Origin: Candidatus Kirkpatrickella diaphorinae
GTDB taxonomy: Bacteria > Pseudomonadota > Alphaproteobacteria > Acetobacterales > Acetobacteraceae
Direction: 5' to 3'
Assembly (NCBI RefSeq): GCF_025736875.1
Contig: NZ_CP107052.1
Span: 1,414,001 to 1,478,000 of the forward strand
Length of the DNA: 64,000 nt
Positions 36,787 to 51,758 of the stretch are shown in pieces. Position numbers and translations under genes: made by a program. The notes beneath the pieces were generated by a model, which did no database searches, had not been told where the DNA came from, and saw only the letters and a list, made by a program, of their open reading frames with translations. Within the stretch, counting starts at the first letter, position 1. Each line of letters opens with the position of its first letter.

Positions 36787-37860
36787 ATGGAAGGCAGCAT
36801 GTCAGATATAACGGGCGCAGCGATCGAAAAATTCAATATGAAGGGCTGGCCCCGGACATCTGACTCCATGTCTGAAGCCATCGGCGGCACACCGCTTATC
36901 CTTTTGCGCGGCGTCTCCGAAGCGACAGGCTGCAAAATCTACGGCAAAGCGGAATTCATGAATCCCGGTGGTTCGGTCAAAGATCGGGCCGCGCTGGCGA
37001 TTATTTCCGACGCGGAGGCGCGTGGTCAGTTAAAGCCGGGCGGTGTCATCGTGGAGGGGACAGCGGGCAATACCGGCATCGGCCTGACCCTCGTCGCCCA
37101 TGCGCGCGGTTACCGCACAATCATCGTCATGCCCGAGACACAGAGTCGGGAAAAAATCGATTTTTTAAGGATGATCGGCGCGGACCTGCGTCTTGTCCCC
37201 GCAAAGCCCTATCGCGATCCGGGTAATTACGTCCATGTCTCCCGACGCATTGCGGAGGAGACACCCGGCGCGGTCTGGGCCAATCAATTTGACAATATTG
37301 CCAATCGTGAGGGCCATCGCCGCACGACCGCCGCGGAAATCTGGTCACAACTGGATGGCCGGATTGATGCATTCACCTGCGCCTGCGGCACGGGCGGGAC
37401 CTTGGCAGGCGTCGCATTGGGTCTGGCCGACGCATCACGCGCGGCAGGTCGCCCGCGACCGCACATCGTCCTCGCAGATCCGGAGGGGTCCGGCCTGGCG
37501 GGCTGGGTCAAAAACGGTGATCTCACCCCTTCCGGCAGTTCCATCACAGAAGGGATTGGCCAGTCCCGCGTGACAGGAAATCTTGAGGGCGTCACATTTG
37601 ACGATGCGGAAAAAATCCCTGATGCGGAGGCGCTTGAGTTGATTTTCGCGCTGCAGATGCAGGAGGGTCTTAGCCTTGGCGGCTCATCGGGCATCAATAT
37701 CGCCGCCGCGGCCCGCACGGCGCGGAAACTGGGCCCGGGCCATAATATCGTGACGATCCTGTGCGATGGTGGCGCACGCTATCAGTCAAAGCTCTTCAAT
37801 CCGGCATTTCTGCGTCAGAAGGACCTCCCGATACCGTCATGGCTGAAGGACGAAATGTAA
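36787..37860 (+). CDS. cysK: Cysteine synthase family protein (CysK-like)
   Basis: A 357-residue fold-type II PLP enzyme. PLP lysine Lys65 is in NPGGSVKDRAAL; the substrate loop GTAGNTGIG follows near residue 90 and the phosphate loop CGTGGTLAG later. It makes cysteine from O-acetylserine and sulfide. The N-terminus is about 20 residues longer than classic CysK and begins after AGGAAG with 9 nt spacing. A second ATG at 36799 is possible. A truncated regulator gene follows. Confidence 0.9.
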   Translation: MEGSMSDITGAAIEKFNMKGWPRTSDSMSEAIGGTPLILLRGVSEATGCKIYGKAEFMNPGGSVKDRAALAIISDAEARGQLKPGGVIVEGTAGNTGIGLTLVAHARGYRTIIVMPETQSREKIDFLRMIGADLRLVPAKPYRDPGNYVHVSRRIAEETPGAVWANQFDNIANREGHRRTTAAEIWSQLDGRIDAFTCACGTGGTLAGVALGLADASRAAGRPRPHIVLADPEGSGLAGWVKNGDLTPSGSSITEGIGQSRVTGNLEGVTFDDAEKIPDAEALELIFALQMQEGLSLGGSSGINIAAAARTARKLGPGHNIVTILCDGGARYQSKLFNPAFLRQKDLPIPSWLKDEM

Positions 37861-37913
37861 CGATAGGTAACGACGCTTGGATTTCGTCGTCCATCCCGTC
37901 CATCCTCATCACG

Positions 37914-38081
37914 ATGTCCACGCGCCCCCACCTCCTCGTCGTTGATGATGATCGCGAGATCCGCGCCTTACTGGCGCGGTATCTTGAGAGAAACGATTTC
38001 CGCGTGTCGACAGCGCGTGACTGTGTGGAAGCACGTCAGGTCTGGTTGCGCCCTCGACAGAAATGGACAGTTCTGCCATGA
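37914..38081 (+). pseudogene. Truncated OmpR-type response regulator, N-terminal half of receiver only
   Basis: The 55-codon ORF begins PHLLVVDDDREIRALLARYL, the first beta strand, acidic pair and alpha 1 of a receiver domain, and continues to about alpha 2 (ARDCVEARQVW). It then runs into unrelated residues and stops, before the phosphoacceptor aspartate. No DNA-binding domain or partner kinase follows; the next gene starts 18 bp later. This is best read as a deletion remnant. Confidence 0.75.
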
Positions 38082-38099: not shown

Positions 38100-38690
38100 G
38101 TGATTGAGGTCATGCTTCAACGTCTTTATCAGAAAATCCTCGCCCTCTCCGCCGCACCCAACGCAAAATGGTGGCTGTTCGCCGTCGCTTTTGCAGAAGC
38201 GTCATTTTTTCCGATCCCGGTCGATGTGCTGCTGATCCCGATGGTGCTCGCCCAACCCCTGAAGGCCTGGCGACTGGCCACAATGTGCACGGTCGGGAGC
38301 GTCCTTGGTGGCTTGTTAGGGTGGTGCATCGGGGCCTTTCTGTTCAGTTACGTTGCCCTGCCCATTGCGGAATTTTACCACGCGACCCATAGCTTACTGG
38401 CAATGCAGGAGAAATTCCTGCGTTATGGTATGGCGATCATCCTCTTAAAGGGGCTGACGCCGATCCCGTTTAAAATCATCACGATCGCAGCCGGGGCGGC
38501 GCATTACCCGATATGGCCATTTCTTCTTGCATGTATCGTGACGCGCGGGGGTCGTTTCTTCCTCGTCGCAGGTTTATTACGTCTTTTTGGCGCACCGATC
38601 CGGGATTTTATCGAGAAGCGCCTGACGCTGGTCCTTCTCGCGGCGCTCATTCTGATTATCGGTGGTGCCGCGGTCGTTTTCTATTTCTGA
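38100..38690 (+). CDS. YqaA/DedA-like VTT-domain membrane protein
   Basis: A 196-residue inner-membrane protein with five to six hydrophobic segments. The VTT/SNARE-associated pattern shows in FAEASFFPIPVDVLLIPM, then GSVLGGLLGWCIG and KGLTPIPFKIITIAAG. Relatives act in lipid scrambling or membrane homeostasis; the YqaA branch is uncharacterised. It starts with GTG at 38100 or ATG at 38112 (GAGG very close). The SDR gene follows 15 bp later, so both may be one transcript. Confidence 0.82.
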   Translation: MIEVMLQRLYQKILALSAAPNAKWWLFAVAFAEASFFPIPVDVLLIPMVLAQPLKAWRLATMCTVGSVLGGLLGWCIGAFLFSYVALPIAEFYHATHSLLAMQEKFLRYGMAIILLKGLTPIPFKIITIAAGAAHYPIWPFLLACIVTRGGRFFLVAGLLRLFGAPIRDFIEKRLTLVLLAALILIIGGAAVVFYF

Positions 38691-38705
38691 AGCAGGAGGC
38701 TCGCC

Positions 38706-39731
38706 ATGCCGCAACAAGTCGCTGTTGTCACCGGAGCGGGAAGTGGCATCGGGCGCGCCACAATCCGCCTGCTGGCAGAATATGGTTTTGATATCGCCCT
38801 GATGGGGCGCGATGCAAAACGCCTCAAGGCCGCGGCGACGGAGCTTAAGCCCTCCAATGTCAGGACCCTCGTCATGCCGGTTGATGTCGCGGATGGCGAG
38901 GCACTGGAGGCGGCGGCCGATCGGGTTGAGGAGAAGCTCGGCGCGATCACGGTCTGGATCAATGCAGCCGGCGTGTCCGCCACCGGCCCCGTCTTGTCGC
39001 TTGAAGCCGCGGCCTACGCGCAGGTGATGCGGGTAAATTATCTCGGCGCCGTCAATGGCACGCGCGCCGCCCTGCGCGTCATGCGCCGTCGTGGTGAGGG
39101 GCAGATCGTCAATATCGGCCTCGCCCCGCGCCTGCGCGGCCTGCCCCTCCAGAGCGCGAATAATGGCGCCCATGCCGGACTCAATGCGTTTTGCGACTGC
39201 GTCCGGCCTGAAATACAAGCTCTCTCCGACCGCATCACCCTGACGATGGTCAACCTCCCCTGGATCAACACACCACGCTGGACGTGGGGCCGTAACCGGT
39301 CAGGTCATCAATTGAAGCCGATCGGCCCGATTTATGAGCCGGAAGTCGCGGCCCATGCGATCACGCGGGCAATTTTCAGCCGACAGCGCGACGTGACGGT
39401 GGGGGCCTCCTCCATTATCCCACAATTTCTCAGCACATTTCTGCCGCAGGTTCGCGACGCTTTTCATGCGTGTCGCGGCGTCGCCCGGCAGAGAGGATTG
39501 GGCAAGGCGCATCACCCTGCCGAAACCTCTCACGAAGATAATCTTGAACAAAGCGTTGAGGGTGCCTTTGCAGCGCGTGGGCCGCATGAGGCCCAACCTT
39601 TTCGCCCACGCGGGCGCAAGCCTGTGCTGCTGACCCATCGCCTGCGCTATATATTGGGGACCATCGTGACATTGGCGCTGTTTTACGCTTTTGGATATGT
39701 CGCGCCCCCGCGCTTTCCCCGCAAAAAATGA
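38706..39731 (+). CDS. SDR-fold protein lacking the catalytic Ser-Tyr-Lys, with C-terminal membrane helix
   Basis: A 341-residue protein. The NAD(P) motif VTGAGSGIG (8-16) and NAAG (86-89) are intact, as is the structural Asn111 (VNYLG). Where relatives have the catalytic Ser, Tyr and Lys (VGSA...SAYxxxK), this protein has Leu139, Asn152 and His156 (NIGLA...SANNGAH). It should bind the cofactor but not catalyse normal SDR chemistry. The last 30 residues form a membrane helix with a basic tail (RFPRKK). The reading frame is intact throughout, so it is a pseudoenzyme and not a pseudogene. Confidence 0.85.
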   Translation: MPQQVAVVTGAGSGIGRATIRLLAEYGFDIALMGRDAKRLKAAATELKPSNVRTLVMPVDVADGEALEAAADRVEEKLGAITVWINAAGVSATGPVLSLEAAAYAQVMRVNYLGAVNGTRAALRVMRRRGEGQIVNIGLAPRLRGLPLQSANNGAHAGLNAFCDCVRPEIQALSDRITLTMVNLPWINTPRWTWGRNRSGHQLKPIGPIYEPEVAAHAITRAIFSRQRDVTVGASSIIPQFLSTFLPQVRDAFHACRGVARQRGLGKAHHPAETSHEDNLEQSVEGAFAARGPHEAQPFRPRGRKPVLLTHRLRYILGTIVTLALFYAFGYVAPPRFPRKK

Positions 39732-45876: not shown

Positions 45877-47637
45877 ATGCAACAAATAACTATTGATGCA
45901 AATGTAAGCGATAAATCATTAGGAAGAAACGGTCTTATTAAAGACATTAACGGCGTCAATGGCACGCCGATTTCCTTCATGCCTGGATTTCCCGATCTTC
46001 AGGACCAGTTCAACCAGATCGGCGTCAGCCATGTCCGGCTTCACGATATATTCGGCCCGGGCGACCTCGAAAACAACGCTTCCACCACGGATACAGGGAG
46101 TCAGTTACTTCTGGCCGTGCCTTCCAACGAGAAGAAACGCGCGGCAGCCTTCATCGCCAACATCATGAATGATCGCGCCATTTTCCCCCACGCAAATGAG
46201 GGAATGCGCAAACATGACAGGACGCTTGCGGCTTCAGAACCGAATTGGGCGCCCACTGATTATTATATTAACGAAACGATGCGTAATGTCGAAAGTCTCA
46301 ATCCGGGACATATTCAACGCGATGTGATGTTTCGTATCGGGCGCTCCAATGGTGGTGGCGCCGATGCACCGGCGGATCTCGATATTTATGCTGAACTGGT
46401 CGGGGAGGCCGTGAAGCGTTATTCTGCGGATCTCTCACTCTCCGGGATACCGCGTAAAATCGAGTATTGGGAAATCTGGAATGAGCCCGATCTGCTGATT
46501 TTCTGGAAAGGTGGCTCAACCGCATTTTACGAAATGTACGCGAAAATCGCAAGGAAGATCAAATCGATCGATCCGAATGCGAAAGTCGGCGGGCCGGGCG
46601 TTGCCGATGGTGAAAACGGCACGGGCGCTTACACGAAGGGCCTCGTCGCCTATTGTCAGAAAAACAATGTGCCGCTTGATTTTCTGTCCTGGCATTATTA
46701 CGCCCATATGACGACAGACCCGTTGAAGTTCGCAACCTGCGCGAAGGTCCAGCGCAATCTGCTCGATAAATACGGGTTCAAATATGCGGAGAGCATCTGC
46801 TCCGAATGGAACATCACGCCCTTCGCTTCCGTCGCGAACGCCACGAAGGTTCAGACACCGCAAAACGCGGCTTTCATCGCTGCCAGTTTCATCACCATGA
46901 ATCGCTGCAGCGTCGATAAGGCCTATTATTATCGCGGAGATGCCGGTTTTCTCGGCCTTTTCAACAATGAGCCCAATTATCTCGACCCCAAATATCGCGG
47001 TTTCAGCACCGCCGCGGCGCAGGCTTTCGGATTATATAAGGAGATGTTCGGCACGCCGAACCTGCTCGCCACGCCGGATTATTCGAATAACAATCTCTAT
47101 GTTTTGTCGGGGCGCGGCACAAATGCGGTCAATGTGCTTGTCGCACATTTCCGAAAGGATGTTTCGCTCGCGGCGGCAGCCTCCCCGCCGCCCGGCAACA
47201 AATATAATAAGCAATATTACGTTGATTCAGGGCGTGATCTTGATGAGATCACCGATGATTGGAGCCGTGAGCACTGGTTCGGTGAGGTCAAAGCGGGTGA
47301 AGGCAGAAACAGCGCCGATAGCGCACCATCCACATCGACGGATGACCCGGGCAAAGCGACCCCCTCAGACGAACCCGTCACCGAACCCGTCACCCCCTTA
47401 TCTGCAATACATTATGTCAGTCCGACCAGTGACGGCGTGGTTGTCACCGTGAAAAACCTGCCGACGAGAACGCCCGTTCTTGAGGTCAGAAGGGTTAAGG
47501 ATAAGGGTAATCTTGGTGTGATCCTTCCCGTCATCGATAATCAGGGCGTGACCATGAAGACCAACGAAACGACGATCACGATCACCGATCCAAATGCAAC
47601 CGACTATACGGTCTCGCATTACTCGATCATTTGGTAA
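45877..47637 (+). CDS. GH39-like glycoside hydrolase, tandem copy 1
   Basis: A 586-residue protein. The catalytic TIM barrel of clan GH-A covers about residues 20-420. Acid/base Glu203 is in YWEIWNEPDL and the likely nucleophile Glu310 in ICSEWN; FLSWHYYA fits the family strand. After residue 460 comes a Ser/Thr/Pro/Glu linker, then an about 75-residue beta-rich end domain finishing in TVSHYSIIW. No signal peptide or membrane segment: the protein starts MQQITIDANV. GH39 enzymes cut beta-xylosides, iduronides or exopolysaccharide (PslG); substrate here is unknown. Two paralogues follow. Confidence 0.82.
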   Translation: MQQITIDANVSDKSLGRNGLIKDINGVNGTPISFMPGFPDLQDQFNQIGVSHVRLHDIFGPGDLENNASTTDTGSQLLLAVPSNEKKRAAAFIANIMNDRAIFPHANEGMRKHDRTLAASEPNWAPTDYYINETMRNVESLNPGHIQRDVMFRIGRSNGGGADAPADLDIYAELVGEAVKRYSADLSLSGIPRKIEYWEIWNEPDLLIFWKGGSTAFYEMYAKIARKIKSIDPNAKVGGPGVADGENGTGAYTKGLVAYCQKNNVPLDFLSWHYYAHMTTDPLKFATCAKVQRNLLDKYGFKYAESICSEWNITPFASVANATKVQTPQNAAFIAASFITMNRCSVDKAYYYRGDAGFLGLFNNEPNYLDPKYRGFSTAAAQAFGLYKEMFGTPNLLATPDYSNNNLYVLSGRGTNAVNVLVAHFRKDVSLAAAASPPPGNKYNKQYYVDSGRDLDEITDDWSREHWFGEVKAGEGRNSADSAPSTSTDDPGKATPSDEPVTEPVTPLSAIHYVSPTSDGVVVTVKNLPTRTPVLEVRRVKDKGNLGVILPVIDNQGVTMKTNETTITITDPNATDYTVSHYSIIW

Positions 47638-48089: not shown

Positions 48090-49856
48090 ATGCAGCAGAT
48101 CAGTATCAACGCAAATCAACCTGCGTTCGGTCAAGGTAAAAACGGTCAAGTTAAAGACATTAATGGCGTCAATGGCGCGCCGATCTCATTCATGCCGGGC
48201 TACCCTGATTTACAGGACCAATTTAATCAGCTCGGTATCAGCCATGTGCGTTTCCACGATATTTTCGGGCCTGGCGACATTGAAGACGTTGTCTTCCCCC
48301 TGCAAATAACTTCCCAGCTCATGATTGCCGTCCCAATACCGGAAAAAATACGTGCGGCGGCATTCGTTGCCGCCATTACGAAGGACCGCGCCATATTCCC
48401 TCATGCAAATGCCGGAATGCGCGTCGCAAGTCGGTCCCTGGCAAGTTCGTCGCCCAATTGGGCACCGACTGATTATTATATCCGGAAGACAATGGAGAAT
48501 ATTGAGAGCCTGAACCCCGGACATATTGAGCGCAATGTGATGTTTCGCGTCGGACGCTCAAACGGAGGCGACAGCTCGGTCCCGGCGAATTTCGACATTT
48601 ATGCTGATCTGGTGGGTCAGGCTGCGCAACGTTACTCTGCAGATATTTCCCTATCCGGCATACCGCGCAAAGTCGCCTATTGGGAAATCTGGAATGAGCC
48701 TGATCTCGTCCTTTTCTGGATGGGAACGCCGAAGAAGTTTTACTCCATGTATGAAAAAATCGCGCGTAAAATCAAATCGATTGATCCTTCAGCCAAAGTG
48801 GGCGGAAGTGGCGTCGCCAATGGGGATGACGGCTCAGGGCCCTATACGCGCGGGCTGGTGGATTATTGCCGCACAAATGACGTGCCGCTCGATTTTCTCT
48901 CATGGCATTATTACGCTCAGAACTCGTCGGATCCACGTCGTTTCGCGACCTGCGCCGCCCTGCAACGACAGAATCTGGATCGCGCCGGCTTCACCTCTGC
49001 AGAAAGTATCTGCACGGAATGGAATATTACGCCCCTTTCCTCAGCCATCACCGCTTCAGCGGTTCAATCTGCTGAGAATGCGGCCTATATCACCGCAAGC
49101 TTCATCACGATGAACAAATCTGCCGTCGATAAAGCCTATTATTATCGGGGCGATGCGGGTTTTCTGGGCCTCTTCAATGACGCCCCCAATCCGAGAGACC
49201 CGTCCAGCAAGGCTTTCTGCACTTATGCCGCGCAGGCTTTCGGGCTTTATAAGCAGATGTTCGGCACGCCGCAACTTCTGGCGACCCCGGAACTCTCCGG
49301 CAATGATATTTATGTGCTGGCGGGACGCGGCACAAATGCCGTCAACGTGCTTGTATCAAATTTCACACCCGATTTGCGGCTGGCTGCGGGCGCAAAAACG
49401 CCAAGCGGCGGTCTTAATCAGCAACATTATGTGGATTCCGGCCGTCTCCTGTTTGCCATCGATGATGATTGGAGCATTGAACATTGGTTTGGCGGGTCCA
49501 AACCCAGCATCCTGCGCCAAACCCATTACGAGCCGCCATCAACCGCCGCGCACCCGGACGCGCCGGAAACCGAGGAGGATGGCGAGGATCCGGGTGCTTC
49601 ACACCCCGCTCCGGTTTCGGCCCCTGCCCCAGCGGTGATGGCCGTCAATGATGGTATCGTGCTGAATGTCAGTGGTTTGCCGACTTCGACACCGAGGCTT
49701 GAAGTCCGCCGCATCGTACAAGGCGGCGACCTTGGCGCTGTGCTTCCCCCGGTCAATAATGGGGGCGTAAATGTGCAATATAATGGCAATAATATAACAA
49801 TCTACGATCCATTAGCTGTTCAATATACGGTGACGCATTATTCTATCATTTGGTAG
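48090..49856 (+). CDS. GH39-like glycoside hydrolase, tandem copy 2
   Basis: 588 residues, closely related to copy 1 over the whole barrel: residues 22-62 differ at only a handful of positions. Catalytic Glu203 (WNEPDL) and Glu310 (ICTEWN) are kept at identical positions. The linker (about 470-515) is different, rich in Ala, Pro and Glu. The end domain again finishes ...HYSIIW. No signal peptide. Its own promoter and the leader motif AATAAGAAAAAGAG just before the ATG repeat the arrangement of copy 1, which points to a tandem duplication including regulatory DNA. Confidence 0.82.
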   Translation: MQQISINANQPAFGQGKNGQVKDINGVNGAPISFMPGYPDLQDQFNQLGISHVRFHDIFGPGDIEDVVFPLQITSQLMIAVPIPEKIRAAAFVAAITKDRAIFPHANAGMRVASRSLASSSPNWAPTDYYIRKTMENIESLNPGHIERNVMFRVGRSNGGDSSVPANFDIYADLVGQAAQRYSADISLSGIPRKVAYWEIWNEPDLVLFWMGTPKKFYSMYEKIARKIKSIDPSAKVGGSGVANGDDGSGPYTRGLVDYCRTNDVPLDFLSWHYYAQNSSDPRRFATCAALQRQNLDRAGFTSAESICTEWNITPLSSAITASAVQSAENAAYITASFITMNKSAVDKAYYYRGDAGFLGLFNDAPNPRDPSSKAFCTYAAQAFGLYKQMFGTPQLLATPELSGNDIYVLAGRGTNAVNVLVSNFTPDLRLAAGAKTPSGGLNQQHYVDSGRLLFAIDDDWSIEHWFGGSKPSILRQTHYEPPSTAAHPDAPETEEDGEDPGASHPAPVSAPAPAVMAVNDGIVLNVSGLPTSTPRLEVRRIVQGGDLGAVLPPVNNGGVNVQYNGNNITIYDPLAVQYTVTHYSIIW

Positions 49857-49973: not shown

Positions 49974-51758
49974 ATGTTTAGAATTCAGATTGACCCCAAT
50001 ACACCCCTTGCCAGCGGAAATACGTCCGCGCAGGTCAAGCAGGTCAATGGCGTGAATGGTTCACCCATCTCCTTCATGCCGGGTTTTCCCGATCTTCAGG
50101 ATCAATTCAGACAATTGGGCTTCATCCACATCCGGATGCACGATATTTACGGCGTCTGCGATATTGAGCCATATTTTGACGCCAATCGAGCCGCAAATAC
50201 AAACCAGCTTCTCCCCAACGTACCGCAGGATCAACAGGACCGCGCAAAAAATTTCATTGCCGATTTCAATAATACGCGCGTCATTTTTCCGAATGCCGTG
50301 AAAGGCATGAAAAAGCTGAGTACCAGCCTTGCGAAGAAAGATGCAAATTACGCGCCCACTGATTATTACCTCAAGCAAACGATTGAAAACATTGATTCCG
50401 CGGCCAGCAGCGCCTCTGGCGGCGAAATCATGTTCCGCATCGGGCGCTCAAATGATGGCGGGTGGGAATTGCCATCCAACTTCAAAATCTATGCCGAGCT
50501 TGTCGGTGAACTCGTCAAACGTTATTCCAGCGACCTTTCAAAATCGGGCCTTCCTCGTAAGGTCAAATATTGGGAAATCTGGAATGAGCCGGACCTTCCC
50601 TTCTTCTGGAACACGGATGATGTGTCGCGCTATTACGAGTTTTATGCGACGGTCGCCCGGAAGATCAAATCGATCGACCCCGATGCCAAAATCGGAGGCG
50701 CGGGGGCTGCGTTCGGGCTGAATATCGGAGGCGCCTTCCTTGACGGGCTCCTTGCTAATTGCCGCGCAAAGAGTGTCCCGATCGATTTTCTCTCCTGGCA
50801 TTTTTACCCGAGCGAGACAGCCGATCCGCAAAATATCCTGGACGCGGCTGACGGTGTTGCCGCCGCGCTTGACGCTTATGGCTTCAGCAATGTGGAGAGT
50901 ATCTGCTCAGAGTGGAATGTCAGCCCTTACGCATCCTACCTGATGTACAGCAAAGTGCAGAGCGCGCAGAACGCCGCTTTCGTCGCCTCCACTTTAATCG
51001 GCATGAATAAGTGCCGGGTCGACCATGCCCATTATTATCGTGGTGACGGCGGGGCCTTCGGGTTATTCAATGATGCATTCAACCCCGCGATCCCGGACGC
51101 GAAAGCGTTCTGCTCCTATGTCGCGCAGACTTTCAAATTATATAATGAAATGTTTGATACGCCGCAGCTAATCTCAACGTCAGATGCGGGGCGCACGGGC
51201 ATCAGCATTCTCGCAGGGTCGTCCAGCGGCAAAATCAACATCCTCGTCGCAAATTACCGCATCGACAAGTCGCTACCGCAAATGTATACGCCCCCGGTCG
51301 GCAATATTTATTACAATCAGCATTATGTCGATACGGGTCGAAGCCTCGCGGAGATCACTGATGATTGGTCACGGGAGCATTGGTTCGGCGGCCAGGATCC
51401 AACCACCCTGCATAACAACAACGAGGTGCCCCAGCAGGCCTGGGCACCGACTTTGCCATCCTCGTCACCCTATCCCGTCCGGACCCGCGATTACGCCCAG
51501 AGCGCTGGCGGCGTACATCTGGTGATCAACGATCTGGCCGGGCGTGTTGATTCGGTAAAAGCGCATCGCCTCTATGAAGGCGGCGATCTGAGCGGGGTTA
51601 TGCCGCCAGATGTTTCACAGGAGCTGGCTTATTGGTACGATGGCAATGACTACATCATTGAAGACGGAAATGCGAAGGAAAGCACGGTAACGCTTTACAC
51701 GATCACTTTGAGAGACTGGCATCGCTTCCCCACTTTGCCGCCGATTCATAAGAAATAA
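49974..51758 (+). CDS. GH39-like glycoside hydrolase, tandem copy 3 (divergent)
   Basis: 594 residues, more distant from copies 1 and 2. Catalytic Glu205 (WNEPDLPFFW) and Glu313 (ICSEWN) are kept, as are NGVNGSPISFMPGFPDLQDQF and SWHFYPSE. The linker is short. The end domain is related but has a different C-terminus (LRDWHRFPTLPPIHKK) without the HYSIIW ending. No signal peptide (MFRIQIDPN). GGATCT and AT-rich sequence precede the ATG. It lies 117 bp after copy 2 and may share its transcript; I see no good promoter of its own. Confidence 0.8.
   Translation: MFRIQIDPNTPLASGNTSAQVKQVNGVNGSPISFMPGFPDLQDQFRQLGFIHIRMHDIYGVCDIEPYFDANRAANTNQLLPNVPQDQQDRAKNFIADFNNTRVIFPNAVKGMKKLSTSLAKKDANYAPTDYYLKQTIENIDSAASSASGGEIMFRIGRSNDGGWELPSNFKIYAELVGELVKRYSSDLSKSGLPRKVKYWEIWNEPDLPFFWNTDDVSRYYEFYATVARKIKSIDPDAKIGGAGAAFGLNIGGAFLDGLLANCRAKSVPIDFLSWHFYPSETADPQNILDAADGVAAALDAYGFSNVESICSEWNVSPYASYLMYSKVQSAQNAAFVASTLIGMNKCRVDHAHYYRGDGGAFGLFNDAFNPAIPDAKAFCSYVAQTFKLYNEMFDTPQLISTSDAGRTGISILAGSSSGKINILVANYRIDKSLPQMYTPPVGNIYYNQHYVDTGRSLAEITDDWSREHWFGGQDPTTLHNNNEVPQQAWAPTLPSSSPYPVRTRDYAQSAGGVHLVINDLAGRVDSVKAHRLYEGGDLSGVMPPDVSQELAYWYDGNDYIIEDGNAKESTVTLYTITLRDWHRFPTLPPIHKK

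Follow-up and report, generated by a model that had tools for sequence, protein, structure and literature searches.

The gene discussed here raises a simple question: is an SDR which has lost all three residues of its catalytic triad a gene on its way out, or is it kept for something other than the usual SDR chemistry? It lies in a 64,000-nucleotide stretch of the genome of Candidatus Kirkpatrickella diaphorinae (contig NZ_CP107052.1, positions 1,414,001 to 1,478,000), hereafter the window; the host genome is a single contig of 2.18 Mb. The features of the locus are collected in Table 1.

The open reading frame starts at an ATG and is undamaged over its full length, as the initial annotation had it. 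Its product scores 273 bits (273.2) against NCBIfam NF005495 (PRK07109.1; curated cut-off 264) and 123.8 bits against Pfam adh_short. The classical SDR motifs TGxxxGxG and NAG are both present, the first as TGAGSGIGR, and so are the cofactor-site residues D60-V61, N86-A-A-G89 and T189, which bears out the claim that the cofactor motif and the fold-defining residues are intact. The Ser-Tyr-Lys triad is missing; its replacement by Leu139, Asn152 and His156 was confirmed from the DNA and from alignment. AlphaFold2 returned a complete SDR/Rossmann fold for the protein (pTM 0.82), with most of residues 1–190 above a pLDDT of 90 and a separate terminal helix at residues 311–328. This is the Rossmann fold of the classical SDRs, and the PDB fold matches listed were likewise SDRs. 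The membrane helix and basic tail that had been claimed for the C-terminus are also there, the helix as a prediction and the tail reading ...APPRFPRKK.

Table 1. Features of the locus (positions within the window)
Feature	Position	Strand	Basis
Remnant of OmpR-type response regulator, which precedes kinase-VTT-SDR in relatives	37935..38045	+	Pfam and locus comparison
Membrane protein with VTT domain (YqaA-like), 196 aa; first gene of the pair	38100..38690	+	PF09335, 38.9 bits
AGGAGG ribosome-binding site, between VTT stop codon (38688-38690) and SDR start	38694..38699	+	Sequence
SDR-fold pseudoenzyme, 341 aa, family PRK07109/NF005495	38706..39731	+	ORF, profile matches, alignment, model
Intact Gly-rich cofactor motif (residues 9-17, TGAGSGIGR)	38730..38756	+	Sequence, alignment
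L139 codon CTC, catalytic Ser site	39120..39122	+	DNA reading, alignment with intact relatives
N152 codon AAT, catalytic Tyr site	39159..39161	+	DNA reading, alignment with intact relatives
H156 codon CAT, catalytic Lys site	39171..39173	+	DNA reading, alignment with intact relatives
Predicted C-terminal membrane helix, residues 311-328, then basic tail to residue 341	39636..39689	+	Hydropathy, model

The absence of the triad extends well beyond this strain. A first survey of 299 genomes of the family furnished for comparison the 35 best places and 36 with weaker matches; Ser-Tyr-Lys was absent from all 35 and present in all 36. Searching 299 genomes of the order with a profile then gave 93 places, of which the 73 best (33 already known and 40 new) all belonged to the set without the triad, and 17 of the 20 weaker ones, examined with G287, G195 and contig 124 of G053 left out, all had it. 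Taken together, Ser-Tyr-Lys is missing from all 75 orthologues, spread across 12 genera of the window's family and including two truncated copies (L037 and L274), and is present in all 42 family members of lower similarity. When one genome per species was scanned, the triad was found in 77 and was missing from three among the 80 loci listed of 540 confirmed candidates, the three being in Komagataeibacter diospyri, K. europaeus and Acetobacter farinalis. Eleven SDR loci were tried within the window's own genome; two gave no separate protein, and the nine distinct alignable proteins all keep Tyr and Lys, with Ser kept in eight. The loss is clade-wide and not an accident of one strain. Sequencing error or damage at the three codons was ruled out, as the three residues recur in the sister species and twelve genera are without the triad.

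What took the place of the triad differs within the clade. Sixty-two of the 75 sequences (the E-R group) have an invariant E152-x3-R156, and in these position 139 is variable (L 30, R 16, A 16). The other 13, which form the window's subclade (the H group), always have His at 156 and V, N, I or G at 152. The alignment check proposed initially, for conservation of Leu, Asn and His among orthologues, therefore failed in that form: it is only the loss of the triad which is conserved, the commonest replacement being E152/R156 (62/75).

Selection was assessed from dN/dS. For the SDR gene it is 0.12 (NG86) or 0.11 (YN00) when the two species in the window's genus are compared, and the comparison genes of the same species pair are higher, at 0.29 and 0.44 for ispE and 0.27 and 0.29 for UDG by the two methods respectively. 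Within the E-R group the median is 0.091 and the maximum 0.315 (220 pairs with dS of 0.1–0.7); the Ser-Tyr-Lys rows have a median of 0.224 from only eight pairs in that range, to which the H group contributes a single pair. A broader NG86 run, admitting dS values as high as 1.5, gave medians of 0.250 for the E-R group, 0.200 for the H group and 0.416 for the Ser-Tyr-Lys rows, and the narrower run is preferred since we regard the wider one as affected by saturation. All six genes tested show a fast branch for the window's lineage, with ratios of 1.4–2.3 (SDR 2.28, slt 2.30, cysK 1.99). Relaxed selection in this strain only was ruled out by the low dN/dS and by a fast branch that is common to the six genes.

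One might nevertheless suppose that the genome of this lineage is shrinking and that the gene is decaying without being broken yet. The adjoining regulator and kinase genes have been deleted from the window and carry frameshifts in its sister species, G001, the lineage evolves fast, and two of the 75 orthologues are truncated; all this would suit decay. Against it, the same residues were lost in 12 genera, among them some with genomes of 3–4 Mb, dN/dS is 0.12 here and 0.091 in the E-R group, and the acceleration is not peculiar to the SDR gene. For the clade as a whole decay is already contradicted, and we regard this explanation as very improbable. A pseudoenzyme in the sense of a residue loss that is conserved in orthologues and kept by selection is what the data describe: 75 of 75 orthologues, a single clade, and a dN/dS of about 0.1. 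The clade-wide pseudoenzyme reading is well supported, and with it the initial proposal of a selected pseudoenzyme. No description of this clade was found in the literature searched, by titles and the openings of abstracts, nor any paper that names PRK07109 or that pairs "pseudoenzyme" with "acetic acid bacteria."

A tree of 70 rows, from which the active-site residues 137–158 had been removed and L037 left out, places the 34 rows without the triad in one clade (34/34; SH-aLRT 100) nested among Ser-Tyr-Lys rows, and so requires one change of state; the tree was built quickly and some of its branches are long. The branches adjoining the clade carry intact copies, those of G086 (87), G131 (84) and G071 (98). 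All three lie at the same locus as the altered gene, with a response regulator and a kinase upstream and ispE downstream on the other strand. Since the nearest intact relatives occupy the same chromosomal place, an active gene was altered where it stood. The initial annotation had offered, as grounds for abandoning a pseudoenzyme, orthologues with an intact triad together with selection relaxed in this strain alone. Intact orthologues do exist, even at the same locus, but only outside the altered clade. We have here a clean case of the passage from an enzyme to a preserved non-enzyme without movement on the chromosome, and because the intact and altered forms share one locus in related genera, the steps can be rebuilt and tested.

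The cofactor site has fared quite otherwise than the triad. The residues TG..G.G, R35, D60-V61, N86-A88-G89 and T189 are kept in 74 of 74 altered rows (truncated L037 left out), and position 156 is basic in 75 of 75. The catalytic Lys of SDRs also holds the nicotinamide ribose, and a basic residue at its site fits a retained cofactor. R35, which stands at the end of strand 2, suggests by general SDR rules a preference for NADP(H). Position 89 of the NAG motif carries the canonical Gly in 34 of 34 rows of the altered clade and Met in the nearest intact relatives.

Those relatives are themselves peculiar. The nearest intact PRK07109-type SDRs (e.g., L071, L074 and L077) read N-x-A-M at the NAG motif, with M in 21 of 22. 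Position 111, the site of the fourth catalytic residue, Asn, is N in the window's genus and T in the other 73 of 75 altered rows and in 40 of 42 intact ones; being T in nearly all rows of both kinds, it is uninformative. The Met and the Thr make even the active PRK07109-type forms unusual SDRs.

Could the Rossmann domain be a mere surface? A cofactor-independent scaffold or lipid-binding protein, offering a binding surface to the VTT protein or to another membrane protein, would agree with the tight gene pair, the anchor and the lost catalytic residues. It sits poorly with cofactor-contacting residues that are among the most conserved of the protein, and with a Gly89 that is canonical precisely where the nearest intact relatives have Met, which would not be expected if the cofactor were unimportant. 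We hold a scaffold of this kind to be fairly unlikely.

From the general mechanism of SDRs we would argue that the cleft no longer works as an SDR active site. In the models of both subtypes, each a confident SDR fold with a terminal helix (311–328 in the window protein, 304–326 in the K. diospyri protein), residues 152 and 156 share one helix (H150–172 and H147–172, respectively), so that Glu and Arg would be spaced, by the geometry of the models, as an i/i+4 salt bridge. The invariant pair could be a sign of new catalysis, that is, of a protein still an enzyme, in which Glu152 and Arg156 (His156 in the window's subclade) would stand in for Tyr and Lys, either as general acid and base or in non-redox chemistry on a membrane lipid. 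Such an enzyme might well hold E152 and R156 invariant in 62 of 62 sequences while residue 139 drifts among L, R and A, with the cofactor site and the remaining fold kept under purifying selection. A simple salt bridge would leave the same i/i+4 Glu-Arg pattern, however, and the 13 sequences of the window's subclade have V, N, I or G at 152, none an obvious catalytic group; the loss of Glu152 makes a fixed new active site less likely in that subclade, and the window's copy is constrained all the same (dN/dS 0.12). New chemistry is in our judgement unlikely.

The C-terminal helix is general in the altered clade. Hydropathy reaches at least 1.5 over 17 residues near the C-terminus in 68 of 74 altered rows, the exceptions being five borderline rows (1.41–1.48) and the truncated L274; the tail behind it is no longer than 20 residues in 73 of 74 and is positively charged in 74 of 74. 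Hydropathy and the models agree on the single hydrophobic helix near the C-terminus that marks a C-tail anchor. At a stricter threshold of 1.6 the helix passes in 31 of 34 altered rows and in 27 of 36 intact ones. With the helix present in 27 of 36 intact relatives too, the anchor is ancestral, and the idea that the SDR had been newly fused to a membrane anchor has to be rejected.

The other constant of the locus is the VTT gene, whose stop codon is 15 bases from the SDR start in the window. In 34 of the 35 loci of the first set it immediately precedes the SDR gene and shares its strand (the remaining one, L042, stops at a contig end), and it is directly upstream in 36 of the 40 of the second, where L269, L271, L272 and L273 are without it; both sets together give 70 of 74 testable loci. 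The distance is 19–267 bases in 33 loci, that of the truncated L037 being measured from a partial match. No VTT gene was seen in the upstream stretch of any of 36 intact loci (~1.2 kb examined in most). The initial remark on the VTT neighbour as a possible partner is thus borne out as far as a conserved gene pair goes, and from gene order one would suppose that the two proteins act together. The partnership would not be an obligatory one, given the four loci without an adjacent VTT gene and the damaged VTT gene of G001. In that sister species the VTT gene (L051 8518–8997) has lost 37 codons in frame, from a stretch conserved in relatives, and the SDR gene is intact.

Arrival of the VTT gene together with the triad loss was considered and rejected. 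VTT predates the SDR and is found more widely, being present in 209 of 299 family genomes, and some genomes retain the locus without any SDR. It also lies upstream of the intact SDR genes of G071 (about 1.4 kb) and G131 (5.9 kb), separated by other genes, and at the intact locus of G086 none was found, there being none between kinase and SDR. It is direct adjacency, rather than VTT arrival, which coincides with the triad loss. By eye, the gap in G071 contains an ORF resembling a class A beta-lactamase. No viral copy of the VTT protein was confirmed.

The common order in relatives is cysK, OmpR-type regulator, kinase, VTT, SDR and a 177-aa protein, with ispE on the opposite strand, and with local losses. 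The 177-aa protein (L055 10372–10905, and the same place in relatives) has no Pfam match and occurs also where the SDR is absent; it is missing from the window, where only 52 bases separate the SDR gene from ispE. The regulator and the histidine kinase are deleted from the window at 37761–38078, but for the remnant at 37935–38045, and in the sister species they are frameshifted (L051 6095–8387). In both species, then, the two-component system is under loss while the genes behind it persist.

SDRs are often dimers or tetramers, and the altered protein might be the regulatory subunit of a mixed oligomer with an active SDR and not a partner of the VTT protein; the fold matches include a mixed tetramer of human SDRs (4cqm). 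Against this, no second PRK07109-type SDR exceeds the family cut-off in the window's genome, and no second copy lies alongside in the relatives' loci of common order. Such an oligomer seems quite improbable.

The most likely reading, to which we would give roughly an even chance, is that the protein binds NADP(H), catalyses nothing and serves, tethered to the membrane, as a subunit or sensor working with the VTT protein. This reading fits better than a dying gene because the triad is gone while the cofactor site is constrained, the tether is present and the neighbour is fixed; the four of 74 loci without VTT, and G001 with its VTT gene damaged beside an intact SDR gene, count against it. Its cytoplasmic Rossmann domain would bind NADP(H) and, judged from sequence, would be incapable of the usual SDR hydride chemistry. 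The predicted C-terminal helix with its basic tail would hold the protein at the inner membrane. An active PRK07109-type enzyme at this same locus lost Ser, Tyr and Lys once, on the stem of the clade in acetic acid bacteria. Most descendants exchanged Tyr-x3-Lys for Glu-x3-Arg, with salt-bridge spacing along the former catalytic helix, and the window's subclade for V/N/I/G-x3-His. The protein may act as a structural or regulatory subunit, its conformation set by bound NADP(H), together with the upstream VTT/YqaA-type protein.

Among the closest known systems is NF005495/PRK07109 itself, labelled "SDR family oxidoreductase." The window SDR lies above its cut-off, has the same length and shares the C-terminal helix of most intact members, the nearest of which share its locus; it differs in lacking Ser, Tyr and Lys, and the oxidoreductase label has no support from the active site. 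Automatic annotation would call these proteins oxidoreductases, probably wrongly for all 75 species examined. In the PDB the best fold matches were structures of HSD17B13, and the profile matches include both HSD17B13 and HSD17B11. These are membrane-associated, lipid-linked SDRs of lipid droplets. The anchor of HSD17B13 is N-terminal, and a PDB title that mentions preserved catalytic activity sets it apart from the present protein. NDUFA9, the 39-kDa subunit of complex I, belongs to another SDR branch and is a subunit of a large complex, and it is not known to have a tail anchor. Its likeness to the window SDR is one of description. It has an SDR fold, bound NADPH and a structural role at the membrane surface, with no activity shown (PMC8762328), and is by that account a precedent for an NADPH-stabilised SDR as a structural subunit at a membrane. 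MAT2B was dropped as a precedent, as it retains the triad according to PMC3793261.

The neighbour shares the VTT domain with the COG1238/YqaA group of DedA proteins, its YqaA label coming solely from the annotation ("YqaA family protein") of two plasmid relatives of 45–53% identity. Todor et al. (PMC10127716) place YqaA in COG1238, a DedA subfamily of unknown function for which transport of uncharged or positively charged lipids has been suggested. A more specific and distinctly doubtful form of the preferred reading would see in the SDR a gate which senses NADP(H) and controls a YqaA-type lipid transporter, its active site having been remade in place as a sensor of redox state with the Glu-x3-Arg lock or its His variant. 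Such a gate, if real, would link the movement of lipids across the inner membrane in acetic acid bacteria to NADPH/NADP+ in the cytoplasm. The gene pair ties an unstudied lipid-transporter-like class (COG1238) to a probable redox-cofactor-binding partner, in a host group that is used industrially and is easy to grow.

Elsewhere in the window, three tandem paralogues of 586–594 aa (45877–47637, 48090–49856 and 49974–51758) each match glycosyl hydrolase family 39 in part; at least two copies of these tandem genes are found in the sister species too.
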